From an uncultured Clostridia bacterium (GTDB taxonomy: Bacteria; Bacillota; Clostridia; TANB77; CAG-508): a stretch of 50,116 bases of DNA. The stretch is taken from positions 1 to 50,116 of the forward strand of contig CANRLO010000004.1 of assembly GCA_947631495.1 (NCBI GenBank), given 5' to 3'. Positions 8,752-31,083 of the stretch are shown in pieces. The number at the start of each line of letters is the position of its first letter. The stretch's first letter is position 1. Under the pieces are notes generated by a model, which saw only the letters and a list, made by a program, of their open reading frames with translations, did not search any database and had not been told where the DNA came from. The position numbers and the translations under genes were made by a program.

Positions 8752-9336
8752 ATGCCAGAATATATATATAGAGCTGTAACAGATAAAGGGCTAGTCGTAA
8801 AAAACAAAGTAGAAGATTCTAGTAAACAATCTTTAATCAGAAGACTTAAAGGCAACGGTTTAACGCCTATTCAAGTAGTACAAGTTGGTTATATTGGAAA
8901 AGGTGTGAAAAGGAAAAAGAAAAATGTTAACAATATGGAAGAAATCATGAAAACAGCTAACTCTAGTACTATTTTAAATGGAACAGCAAGAAAAGATATT
9001 TCTTGGGTAGAAAAAGTCAACTTAAAATTAGCAGCAACAGAGCAAATTACCAATCGTGATTTAGTTATTTTTACACAAAACTTCTATCTACTAAAAAAAG
9101 CAAACTTTAATAATATACATGCTTTAAGTACCATTATACAAAGTACAGAAAACTTGTCTTTACGAGGAATTTTAGAGGATATTCTAGCAGGTGTACAAGG
9201 AGGAGACTATATGTACACAACAATGGAATATTATTCTAATGTCTTTCCTTACATATATATTAATATGATTAAAGTAGGAGAATTATCGCGGATCTCTTAC
9301 AAAATCTTTACAACAAGCGGTTCGATATTTAGATGA
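8752..9336 (+). CDS. pilC: Pilus platform protein PilC/GspF, N-terminal fragment (frameshifted)
   Basis: The opening PEYIYRAVTDKGLVV and SLIRRLKGNGLTPIQV are the PilC/GspF N-terminus, and the first GspF domain runs from RDLVIFTQNFYLLKKANF to FPYIYINMIKVGELS. After VGELS the frame is lost: GSL should follow, but an extra C at about 9289 turns TCG-GGA-TCT into TCGCGGATCT. The reading then ends in unrelated residues at 9336. Dropping one base joins it to the downstream frame with no gap, giving about 449 residues for 8752-10102, a normal PilC length. Either the gene is inactivated or this is a sequence error; if real, pili would lack their membrane platform. Confidence 0.85.
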   Translation: MPEYIYRAVTDKGLVVKNKVEDSSKQSLIRRLKGNGLTPIQVVQVGYIGKGVKRKKKNVNNMEEIMKTANSSTILNGTARKDISWVEKVNLKLAATEQITNRDLVIFTQNFYLLKKANFNNIHALSTIIQSTENLSLRGILEDILAGVQGGDYMYTTMEYYSNVFPYIYINMIKVGELSRISYKIFTTSGSIFR

Positions 9337-28605: not shown

Positions 28606-28616
28606 TTCTTAATATA

Positions 28617-28679
28617 AAAGATACAAATCCTTATATTTATTATGGAGAATTACCTAATAATTTTGGTATTGGTGTTACT
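28617..28679. repeat. 63-base partial duplication of the downstream gene
   Basis: Matches 28974-29036 at 62 of 63 positions. It encodes the same DTNPYIYY-ELPNNFGIG segment but has no start codon and hits a stop right after, so it is a non-coding scar upstream of the intact gene. Confidence 0.9.
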
Positions 28680-28736
28680 GATTAAAATATTTTAGGTTTA
28701 GTTTGTATTTACACAAGCTAAGTAAGGAGTAATAAT

Positions 28737-29891
28737 GTGAGTAATGGAAACACTAAATATAAAAAAACATATAATTTAAAAGCTACAATATTTTCAATTA
28801 TATTTCTTGCAATCATTGTTGTAGTAACAGTTTATCTTCTTTTAAATGCTGATAATTTTTTACAAGTTATAGTATGTTTATTTTTGCTAGCATTTATATT
28901 TATAGGTTTAATAAGTATAATAATAGGCATTATAAAAGCTAAAATACAAATTGCAAAAGAAAATAAATATGTTAAAGATACAAATCCTTATATTTATTAT
29001 AGAGAATTACCTAATAATTTTGGTATTGGTGTTACTACTTTACTTATTGATTCAACTATAGAAAACTACAAAGATATAGTTGCGGTAATACTCGACTTAT
29101 GTGCAAGAAAATATATTAAGTTAATAAAACAAAATGATAAATATATTATTCAAATTTTAAAACCAGTTGATGATAATTTATTAAGTAATGAAAAATATAT
29201 ATTAACTTTAATAACAAATAAAAATATAAAAAATATAGATTATAAAGAATGGTATAAATATTGTATGCAAGATGGTATAAATTTAGGATTATACTATCAT
29301 AAAGAAATAAATATTGATAATGGATTCATAAATCCCCAAGAAATAGCAAAAAAGAAAATAAGACAACATGTATCAATAAGTGTTATAGTTGGTATTATAA
29401 TAGCTATTTTGTCTTTATTTGGTATGGATATGATTGAATTAATTAAATATGGATTATTTGAATTTATAACTACGATTATGTATAAATATATATCTACATT
29501 TATAATTACGTTTATACTTACATATGTTGTATTAATTGTTCCTTTTTATTTCATAATTTTATTTGCCGGAATAAAAAATATAATGAAAAAGGTAAAAAAT
29601 ACAAATTATAAAGATATAATAGAAAATAACTTACCAAAAACAGAAAAAGGAATCGAAGAATTACATAAATTATATTCTCTAAAAGCGTTTATAAATGATT
29701 TTGGAAATTTTGTTGACAAAAAAGCAGATGAAGTTGTTATATGGGATAGATATTTATCATATGCACAAGTATTTGGACTTACAAAAGAAATTATGAGTAG
29801 TGGATATAAAGAATTAGTAGAAAATGCATCATTCCAAATTGATAATATAGATAATATTAATTTAAATAATATTGAAGTAAATTCAAATTAA
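28737..29891 (+). CDS. DUF2207-like membrane protein
   Basis: A 384-residue protein starting at GTG (28737) with TAAGGAGT upstream; an overlapping ATG at 28735 is out of frame and immediately terminates. There are two spans near the N-terminus (~12-60) and two more at ~215-280. Between them, YYRELPNNFGIGVTTLLID and IVAVILDLCARKYIKL match the conserved cytoplasmic part of DUF2207 proteins, as does WDRYLSYAQVFGLTKEI near the end. It lacks the large extracytoplasmic DUF2207 N-domain, so it is a short form. The function of the family is unknown. A 63-base copy of its codons ~80-100 lies just upstream. Confidence 0.68.
   Translation: MSNGNTKYKKTYNLKATIFSIIFLAIIVVVTVYLLLNADNFLQVIVCLFLLAFIFIGLISIIIGIIKAKIQIAKENKYVKDTNPYIYYRELPNNFGIGVTTLLIDSTIENYKDIVAVILDLCARKYIKLIKQNDKYIIQILKPVDDNLLSNEKYILTLITNKNIKNIDYKEWYKYCMQDGINLGLYYHKEINIDNGFINPQEIAKKKIRQHVSISVIVGIIIAILSLFGMDMIELIKYGLFEFITTIMYKYISTFIITFILTYVVLIVPFYFIILFAGIKNIMKKVKNTNYKDIIENNLPKTEKGIEELHKLYSLKAFINDFGNFVDKKADEVVIWDRYLSYAQVFGLTKEIMSSGYKELVENASFQIDNIDNINLNNIEVNSN
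28974..29036. repeat. Source copy of the 63-base duplication
   Basis: In-frame copy within the DUF2207-like gene; the partner is 28617-28679, 357 bases upstream, with one A/G mismatch. Confidence 0.9.
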
Positions 29892-29934: not shown

Positions 29935-29948
29935 GTAGACTATTATGT

Positions 29949-30151
29949 AATATCAAGCGTTTGCAAGCTTAAAGTCGAAAAATGAAAGAAAAAGACGATG
30001 AAAAGTTCTTTACATAATTGGAAATATATGGTAACATAAAACCGGATTTGAAATTGCAATTTTATTTCTAAATATTTATTTTCTATGTCAAGTTTATTAT
30101 TCTAGATTATAACTTCCATAGAATATAAAAAAATTTAAGTTCAAGTAAAGT
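29949..30151. repeat. ~203-base direct repeat flanking the toxin-antitoxin module, copy 1
   Basis: Aligns with 30882-31083 with about five substitutions and one single-base indel (~97% identity). It holds no ORF. Near its start is CAAGCGTTTG, which is a perfect palindrome (CAAGCGCTTG) in copy 2. It accounts for half of the 441-base gap 29892-30332; the other half is the antitoxin and its promoter. Confidence 0.95.
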
Positions 30152-30174: not shown

Positions 30175-30204
30175 TTGACAAACAGCATAAAAATAACTTA
30201 TAAT
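30175..30204 (+). promoter_or_regulatory. Promoter of the type III antitoxin RNA
   Basis: TTGACA (30175-30180), 18-base spacer, TATAAT (30199-30204), with a predicted transcript start near 30211. Confidence 0.75.
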
Positions 30205-30210
30205 GAATAT

Positions 30211-30311
30211 AATAAAAATAGATAGCAATATCTATTTACAGTAAAAATCAGGTGAACCCTACCAATAAGTGGGAACTGTAAAATCAATGGTAAAGATTCG
30301 TCTTTACCATT
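30211..30311 (+). ncRNA. toxI: ToxI-like type III antitoxin RNA
   Basis: This stretch between a strong promoter and a terminator, just before a ToxN-family gene, has the layout of a type III antitoxin. A 36-base unit at 30250-30285 begins AGGTGAACCC, continues TACC...AAGTG and ends AAAATC; length and spacing parallel the 36-base ToxI repeat of Pectobacterium as I remember it (AGGTGA...TACC...AAGTG). Before it, ACAGTAAAAATC (30238-30249) looks like only the tail of a preceding repeat. Thus about 1.3 repeats exist, fewer than in known systems. The transcript would open with a 9-bp hairpin closed by a GCAA tetraloop (30216-30237). The repeat RNA is expected to bind and neutralise the toxin, which in turn processes it. 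Confidence 0.75.
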
Positions 30312-30318
30312 TTTTTTT
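30286..30318 (+). terminator. Terminator between antitoxin RNA and toxin gene
   Basis: Perfect 11-bp arms AATGGTAAAGA (30286-30296) and TCTTTACCATT (30301-30311) around a TTCG tetraloop, then a T run. In type III systems this leaky terminator keeps antitoxin in excess over toxin mRNA. Confidence 0.9.
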
Positions 30319-30332
30319 GCATAGGAGGGAAC

Positions 30333-30863
30333 ATGAAATTATATTCAGTATCTGATACTTATATAAGATATTTAAAAAATTTTGATGAAAAAGTATATGA
30401 TAATAAAGAAGAAAATAGAAAACAGACAAGAAAATATTTAGGTATAGTATTAAAAATAAATGATTTTAATTATTATATTCCAATGTCATCTCCTAAAAGA
30501 ACAGATTATCAAGAAGGAAAAATTAGAAAGTCTATTATTCCTATTGTTAGGATTACATCACAAGATGAAATAGATAATACTTTAAAATTAAAAGGAACTT
30601 TAAGAATTAGTAATATGATACCAGTACCCAAAAGTGAACTTATCTTATATGAACCAAAAAAAGAAAAAAATAAAAACTATAAAATACTTATAGAAAAAGA
30701 ATTAGACTTTATAAACAAAAATGAAAATATGATAAAAAAATATGCACAAATTATTTATAATCAAAAGATACATAATTTTAATGTGACATATATAAAAAAT
30801 GTTGTTGACTTTAAAAAGTTAGAACAAAAATGTCAAGAATATCATGCGAAACAATCAGAATAA
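30333..30863 (+). CDS. toxN: ToxN/AbiQ-family type III endoribonuclease toxin
   Basis: A 176-residue protein matching the ToxN/AbiQ/CptN fold family: the start MKLYSVSDTYIRYLKNFDEKV, then KYLGIVLKINDFNYYIPMSSPK and LRISNMIPVPKSELI, and a helical C-terminus are in the family order. ToxN enzymes cut RNA and are held inactive by their repeat RNA; many act in phage abortive infection. AGGAGGG precedes the ATG. The upstream RNA, promoter and terminator complete a type III module, and ~203-base direct repeats flank it on both sides. Confidence 0.88.
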   Translation: MKLYSVSDTYIRYLKNFDEKVYDNKEENRKQTRKYLGIVLKINDFNYYIPMSSPKRTDYQEGKIRKSIIPIVRITSQDEIDNTLKLKGTLRISNMIPVPKSELILYEPKKEKNKNYKILIEKELDFINKNENMIKKYAQIIYNQKIHNFNVTYIKNVVDFKKLEQKCQEYHAKQSE

Positions 30864-30881
30864 ATCTTATAAAAAGGTTGA

Positions 30882-31083
30882 AATATCAAGCGCTTGCAAG
30901 CTTAAAGTCGAAAAATGAAAAAAAAAGACGATGAAAAGTTCTTTACATAATTGGAAATATATGGTAACATAAAACCAGATTTGAAATTGCAATTTTATTT
31001 CTAAATATTTATTTTCTGTGTCAAGTTTATTATTCTAGATTACAACTTCCATAGAATATAAAAAAATTAAGTTCAAGTAAAGT
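30882..31083. repeat. ~202-base direct repeat flanking the toxin-antitoxin module, copy 2
   Basis: Partner of 29949-30151. It ends one base before the AGGAGGG ribosome site of the sortase gene, so it probably is the native upstream region of that gene, duplicated when the module arrived. Confidence 0.95.

Follow-up and report, generated by a model that had tools for sequence, protein, structure and literature searches.

The 50,116-nucleotide stretch analyzed here (the window; positions 1 to 50,116, forward strand, of contig CANRLO010000004.1, assembly GCA_947631495.1) comes from an uncultured Clostridia bacterium (GTDB lineage Bacteria; Bacillota; Clostridia; TANB77; CAG-508) and belongs to a metagenome bin of 1.63 Mb (148 contigs, 6% contamination), in which it is contig 4. 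It carries a ToxIN-type module, in which, as read from the sequence anatomy, an antitoxin RNA is encoded directly upstream of the toxin gene toxN, on the same strand and from promoter to terminator (Table 1), which is the layout of type III systems. One ToxI-type pseudoknot unit of 36 nt makes up the entire repeat content of this RNA. The original prediction had placed a single complete 36-base unit between a strong promoter and a TTCG-loop terminator, and direct reading confirmed it: a repeat search turned up nothing beyond this unit in the interval from promoter to terminator, and automated unit counting returned one. The unit falls in the 34-36 nt range expected of ToxIN antitoxin units that can form an H-type pseudoknot, with complementary S1 and S2 strands and the layout of E. 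coli ToxI. No Rfam family matched the antitoxin region at gathering or relaxed thresholds.

The open reading frame (ORF) downstream is a full-length ToxN/AbiQ endoribonuclease gene, matching PF13958 (138 bits, E = 3.4e-40) and called AbiQ by PADLOC (154 bits). Its sole PDB matches were AbiQ (4glk, 1.7e-21) and the ToxN structures 7d8o, 2xd0 and 4ato. The AlphaFold model of the toxin (mean pLDDT 70) matched ToxN in Foldseek (3.9e-8), and the same four ToxN/AbiQ entries were its only significant fold matches. At the positions of the E. coli ToxN active-site residues Lys33, Thr52, Ser53 and Lys55 (PMC8860590), the window toxin has R33, S52, S53 and K55, respectively, which are invariant in its clade. 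The gene is a ToxN-family toxin in a ToxIN-type module; a failure to match ToxN, which would have spoken against the proposed ToxIN-like module, was not seen in profile, sequence or fold.

The module resembles the ToxIN systems of Pectobacterium atrosepticum and E. coli (plasmid locus L177) in the ToxN fold, the active-site positions, the promoter-RNA-terminator-toxin order and the 36-nt unit with the layout AGGTGA...TACC...AAGTG...GCT..AAA. The first three of these motifs had been given in the prediction for the Pectobacterium ToxI repeat, and they are present in the E. coli unit (AGGTGATTTGCTACCTTTAAGTGCAGCTAGAAATTT). Unlike those systems, which have about 3 to 5.5 units (5.5 × 36 nt in ToxI), the window has one; it also has a 5' hairpin and a TTTACAG leader of its own, and toxin identity is about 30%. 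The closest solved toxin is AbiQ of Lactococcus plasmid pSRQ900 (L174), but its antitoxin antiQ has three units and another sequence layout. Tandem repetition has been treated as defining type III antitoxins and used as a search criterion. The surveys consulted demanded a tandem array (PMC5086642, section 7; PMC8860590), which the window lacks, and one-unit systems would therefore have been dropped; a 2025 paper still puts the repeat numbers of ToxI and antiQ at 2.8-5.5 (PMC12373285). The array is an operational survey criterion, and the active species is a single processed unit. Outside the full repeat table of the largest survey (2012), the literature consulted describes no naturally occurring locus with one unit; earlier publication is possible.

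We examined the one-unit state across relatives, which are uncultured and mostly gut Clostridia. Relatives at 70-77% identity came from seven genera of the family and also from assemblies that had been deposited separately. Wherever the upstream DNA of such a relative was readable, it held a single near-identical unit between AAAATC motifs, with the same hairpin before it and a terminator after it. Eleven of these close relatives (72-77% identity, at least 5 genera) have an intact toxin, and each has one unit. When 51 ToxN proteins were placed in a maximum-likelihood tree, the intact toxins of the window and of these 11 relatives, 12 in all, formed one clade (clade A; support 98/97). On this tree the one-unit state required two changes, one in clade A and one in locus L009. 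Automated counting found one unit in 24 of 25 clade A loci, a count that includes some genomes present in two collections; the remaining locus showed a chance pair with 57-nt spacing, of a kind seen in 7 of 45 shuffled controls. Nearly all clade A members keep the near-consensus promoter (TATAATGAATATAATA) and both flanking AAAATC motifs. The unit pattern (≤3 mismatches) was found in 23 of 390 family genomes from 9 genera, always once per genome, and the reversed pattern in none of the 390, which excludes chance. In a search beyond the family, across 391 genomes of the class, only the window matched.

Clade A neighbours a sister clade of the same family (L051-L065) with 51-57% toxin identity and the same gene order and promoter type. 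The sister clade differs in having mostly three units of 37-41 nt, the first directly after the start site, and no hairpin leader; its automated counts were three units in 17 loci, two in 2 and one in 1. One member, L009/L093, went to one unit independently. Arrays of 3-4 units predominate both in this sister clade and in other groups of ToxN. Because the automated counter undercounts arrays of diverged units, as seen at several loci, low counts outside clade A were judged by eye. Read in this way, L204 (genome G657), which comes from a different family within the class, appeared to be an intact one-unit ToxIN locus; genomes of the same genus have 2 or 3 units; given this further case, the one-unit state is rare but recurrent. 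At L138, a further one-unit locus that belongs to a different ToxN group, a stop interrupts toxN. Because relatives from several genera share the one-unit design, systems of this type seem able to do without repetition. The one-unit clade beside a three-unit sister offers a natural experiment on repeat number with respect to dosage, assembly and phage sensitivity, and supplies in its RNA a naturally minimal type III antitoxin for testing.

Table 1. Elements of the one-unit ToxIN module in the window.
Element	Coordinates	Strand	Basis
Promoter TTGACA-18-TATAAT	30175..30204 (TTGACA 30175-30180; TATAAT 30199-30204)	+	direct reading
5' hairpin, 9 bp, AAATAGATA-GCAA-TATCTATTT	30216..30237	+	direct reading, alignment
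TTTACAGT, possible clamp strand (suggestive only); pairing partner 30275-30282 around the pseudoknot	30235..30242	+
AAAATC, 5' boundary of the unit, presumed ToxN processing site	30244..30249	+	AAATC invariant in alignment of relatives
Single ToxI-type antitoxin unit, 36 nt, AGGTGAACCCTACCAATAAGTGGGAACTGTAAAATC	30250..30285	+	sequence, comparison with E. coli ToxI
Predicted H-type pseudoknot	S1 GGU 30251-30253/ACC 30261-30263; S2 CCC 30257-30259/GGG 30271-30273	+
AAAATC, 3' boundary of the unit, presumed ToxN processing site	30280..30285	+
Intrinsic terminator separating antitoxin from toxin, 11 bp, TTCG loop (30286-30311) and T-run	30286..30318	+
Shine-Dalgarno AGGAGGG	30323..30329	+
toxN, ToxN/AbiQ-family type III toxin, 176 aa	30333..30863	+	profile, sequence, fold
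Flanking direct repeat, left copy (sortase-operon promoter region)	29946..30148	unassigned
Flanking direct repeat, right copy, 97% identical to left	30879..31080	unassigned

The clade A toxin is under normal purifying selection, with a median ratio of nonsynonymous to synonymous substitution (dN/dS) of 0.144 at dS 0.92, against 0.138 in the three-unit sister clade, and the unit is near-invariant within clade A. Since a toxin this well conserved needs a functioning antitoxin, it is very improbable that the antitoxin of clade A is failing. The pseudoknot pairs are invariant within clade A, making covariation there uninformative; the predicted fold is supported by the layout common with E. coli ToxI and by a double substitution in S2 of locus L160 that keeps the pairing (CCC/GGG to CUC/GAG).

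We consider it likely that the window carries a functional ToxIN-family module whose antitoxin has been reduced to one unit, fixed in one clade, and assembles with the toxin in trans. A short RNA would start at the upstream promoter and mostly end at the terminator, with rare read-through giving the toxN mRNA. ToxN cutting at both AAAATC motifs, predicted from the conservation of these motifs and of the catalytic residues, would release one 36-nt pseudoknot that blocks ToxN. Units from separate transcripts would be joined with toxin molecules in trans, probably into the usual closed ring, and antitoxin excess would come from promoter, terminator and RNA stability rather than from repeat number. 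A drop in transcription, for example on phage infection, would let the RNA decay and ToxN cleave RNA. We infer processing, inhibition, trans assembly and triggering. In known systems, ToxN rings assemble from separate processed units (PMC5772629), and single ToxI-type repeats have been used in rescue assays (PMC3475682). Among the three mechanisms raised in the original prediction, the use of single units in trans has the strongest support, and ordinary processing with trans assembly appears likeliest. In CptIN of Eubacterium rectale, one processed CptI repeat suffices for full antitoxicity in vivo (PMC4627078), although that system differs in its natural locus of two 45-nt repeats, its other toxin subfamily and its heterotetramer. 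As the solved ToxIN and CptIN complexes are built of separate processed units (PMC5772629, PMC4627078, PMC8860590), the number of repeats encoded should determine dosage rather than the chemistry of the ring.

Several observations weigh against this reading. The reported requirement is 2.5 repeats for Pectobacterium ToxI and 1.8 for antiQ (0.8 being inviable), each in its own setting (PMC5086642), and a single unit might therefore depend on special dosage. A stronger terminator that compensates for fewer units was unsupported: the window terminator has -11.2 kcal/mol, and the medians of clade A (-13.5) and the three-unit sister clade (-13.3) do not differ in strength, so terminators do not account for how the dose is made up. 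Most relatives are, in addition, metagenome bins.

The 5' hairpin, which the prediction had listed as an extra element, is real and conserved, with a constant stem and variable loop (98.6% of cells paired over 18 distinct rows). It is not, however, special to one-unit loci, since similar hairpins stand before several unrelated three-unit arrays of the lineage. For the same reason, we favour a general function, for instance protection of the 5' end, over a tie to single units. Downstream of it, the 12 bases at 30238-30249 had been taken for the tail of a repeat; the final AAAATC matches the unit tail, as the cleavage-site motif, but the rest shows essentially no match. A remnant of a second repeat was rejected beyond AAAATC because the distance from TTTACAG to AAAATC varies among relatives.

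The unit also occurs without its toxin. In several of the 23 unit-bearing genomes toxN is absent or broken beside the unit, and units lacking toxN were found at L168/L103 (G013), L156 (G318), L160 (G075), L162 (G297) and L172 (G024). In the close relative G013, unit and terminator are 100% identical to the window over 78 bp, with flanks of about 90%, and lie directly behind a histidine-kinase stop codon; at L156, as at L168, an unrelated gene ends with its stop codon immediately before the unit. One chromosomal site (neighbouring DNA 81% identical) is common to L156 and L162, which come from two genera; both lack toxN, and their units differ at one position. The plain reading is that toxins were lost before antitoxins, and toxin-free units may be retained as antidotes. 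A tailed-phage contig (L173, IMGVR_UViG_3300040971_000027; terminase, portal and capsid genes) has one full unit, AATCAGGTGAACCCTACCGATAAGTGGGGACTGTAAAATC, in an intergenic region (8816-8852, minus strand), with no toxN in the stretch examined, and this unit could act as an anti-ToxN decoy. It resembles the pseudo-ToxI of phage PhiTE (PMC3475682) as a stand-alone ToxI-like sequence; the 1.5 repeats of wild-type PhiTE, however, contain no complete unit and work only after expansion, whereas L173 has one full unit in phase. No toxin was confirmed in viral contigs, and no unit was found in phage and plasmid records. With the toxin-free units and the phage unit, one can ask directly whether antidotes against ToxN are maintained by cells and by phages.

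Inhibition could instead be monomeric, a single RNA blocking one ToxN without a ring, perhaps with the leader TTTACAGY paired to the 3' tail of the unit, RCTGTAAA, and holding or shielding the ends. These strands form an 8-bp inverted repeat around the pseudoknot; the pairing is kept in most members (96.3% of cells; innermost pair U-G, C-G or U-A) and is included in the minimum free energy fold of most leaders. Covariation, however, showed no excess over shuffles, and L075 has lost the pairing with an intact toxin. The 3' tail that would be paired is moreover the part bound by ToxN in solved complexes (C27, U28; PMC3475682, PMC8860590), and conservation of both cut-site motifs suggests processing. 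We therefore regard monomeric inhibition as unlikely and the leader-tail clamp as a lead, suggestive only. It is distinctly doubtful that clade A is a one-unit ToxIN branch with its own mode of inhibition, in which a leader-tail helix would give a self-contained 1:1 RNA and the lone unit would be kept in bacterial 3' ends and phage as an antidote.

A weakened antitoxin, also among the mechanisms first proposed, would mean that the module is degenerating after repeat loss. Broken toxN genes in clade members L010, L050, L100 and L167 and the stop at L138 fit such decay, but toxN is otherwise intact across the clade under the constraint given above, beside a near-invariant unit, and the one-unit state is common to the whole clade; we consider decay very improbable. 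Collapse of a tandem array during assembly, which the fragmentation and contamination of the window bin might suggest, has next to no probability. The prediction had named relatives with more repeats as its sign, and close relatives have no extra repeats; one unit was found in 23 genomes and in separately deposited assemblies, and the same type of data assembles three-unit arrays of near-identical units intact (e.g., L060 and L065). The functional one-unit module with trans assembly remains the preferred reading.

The module lies between direct repeats of a sortase-operon promoter region (Table 1). In genome G016 (L007/L105) it occupies the same site with its own repeat pair, and L104 and L107 look like module-free sites. 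Within each genome the two repeats appear to have been homogenised, and through them the module could be excised cleanly. An 80-bp fragment of a DUF2207-like membrane protein gene is duplicated in the window (28612-28691 and 28969-29048, 90% identical), just upstream of the gene.

The window genome has three further ToxN loci, L001 (G000:C121), L003 (C68) and L004 (C2), with different antitoxins or cut-off upstream DNA; at L004, toxN is deleted and three near-identical antitoxin units are kept. A ToxN subfamily common in the genus (motif YCNYLHYYEPKIP, PF13958 at about 168 bits; L012, L016-L025, L027-L029, L031, L034) has no recognisable upstream array, and a solitary ToxN or another antitoxin are candidate readings. 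In L181-L184, from several genomes, ToxN is fused to an additional C-terminal domain, about 190 aa long, that matches nothing in Pfam, and three of these loci have a LysR-type neighbour.
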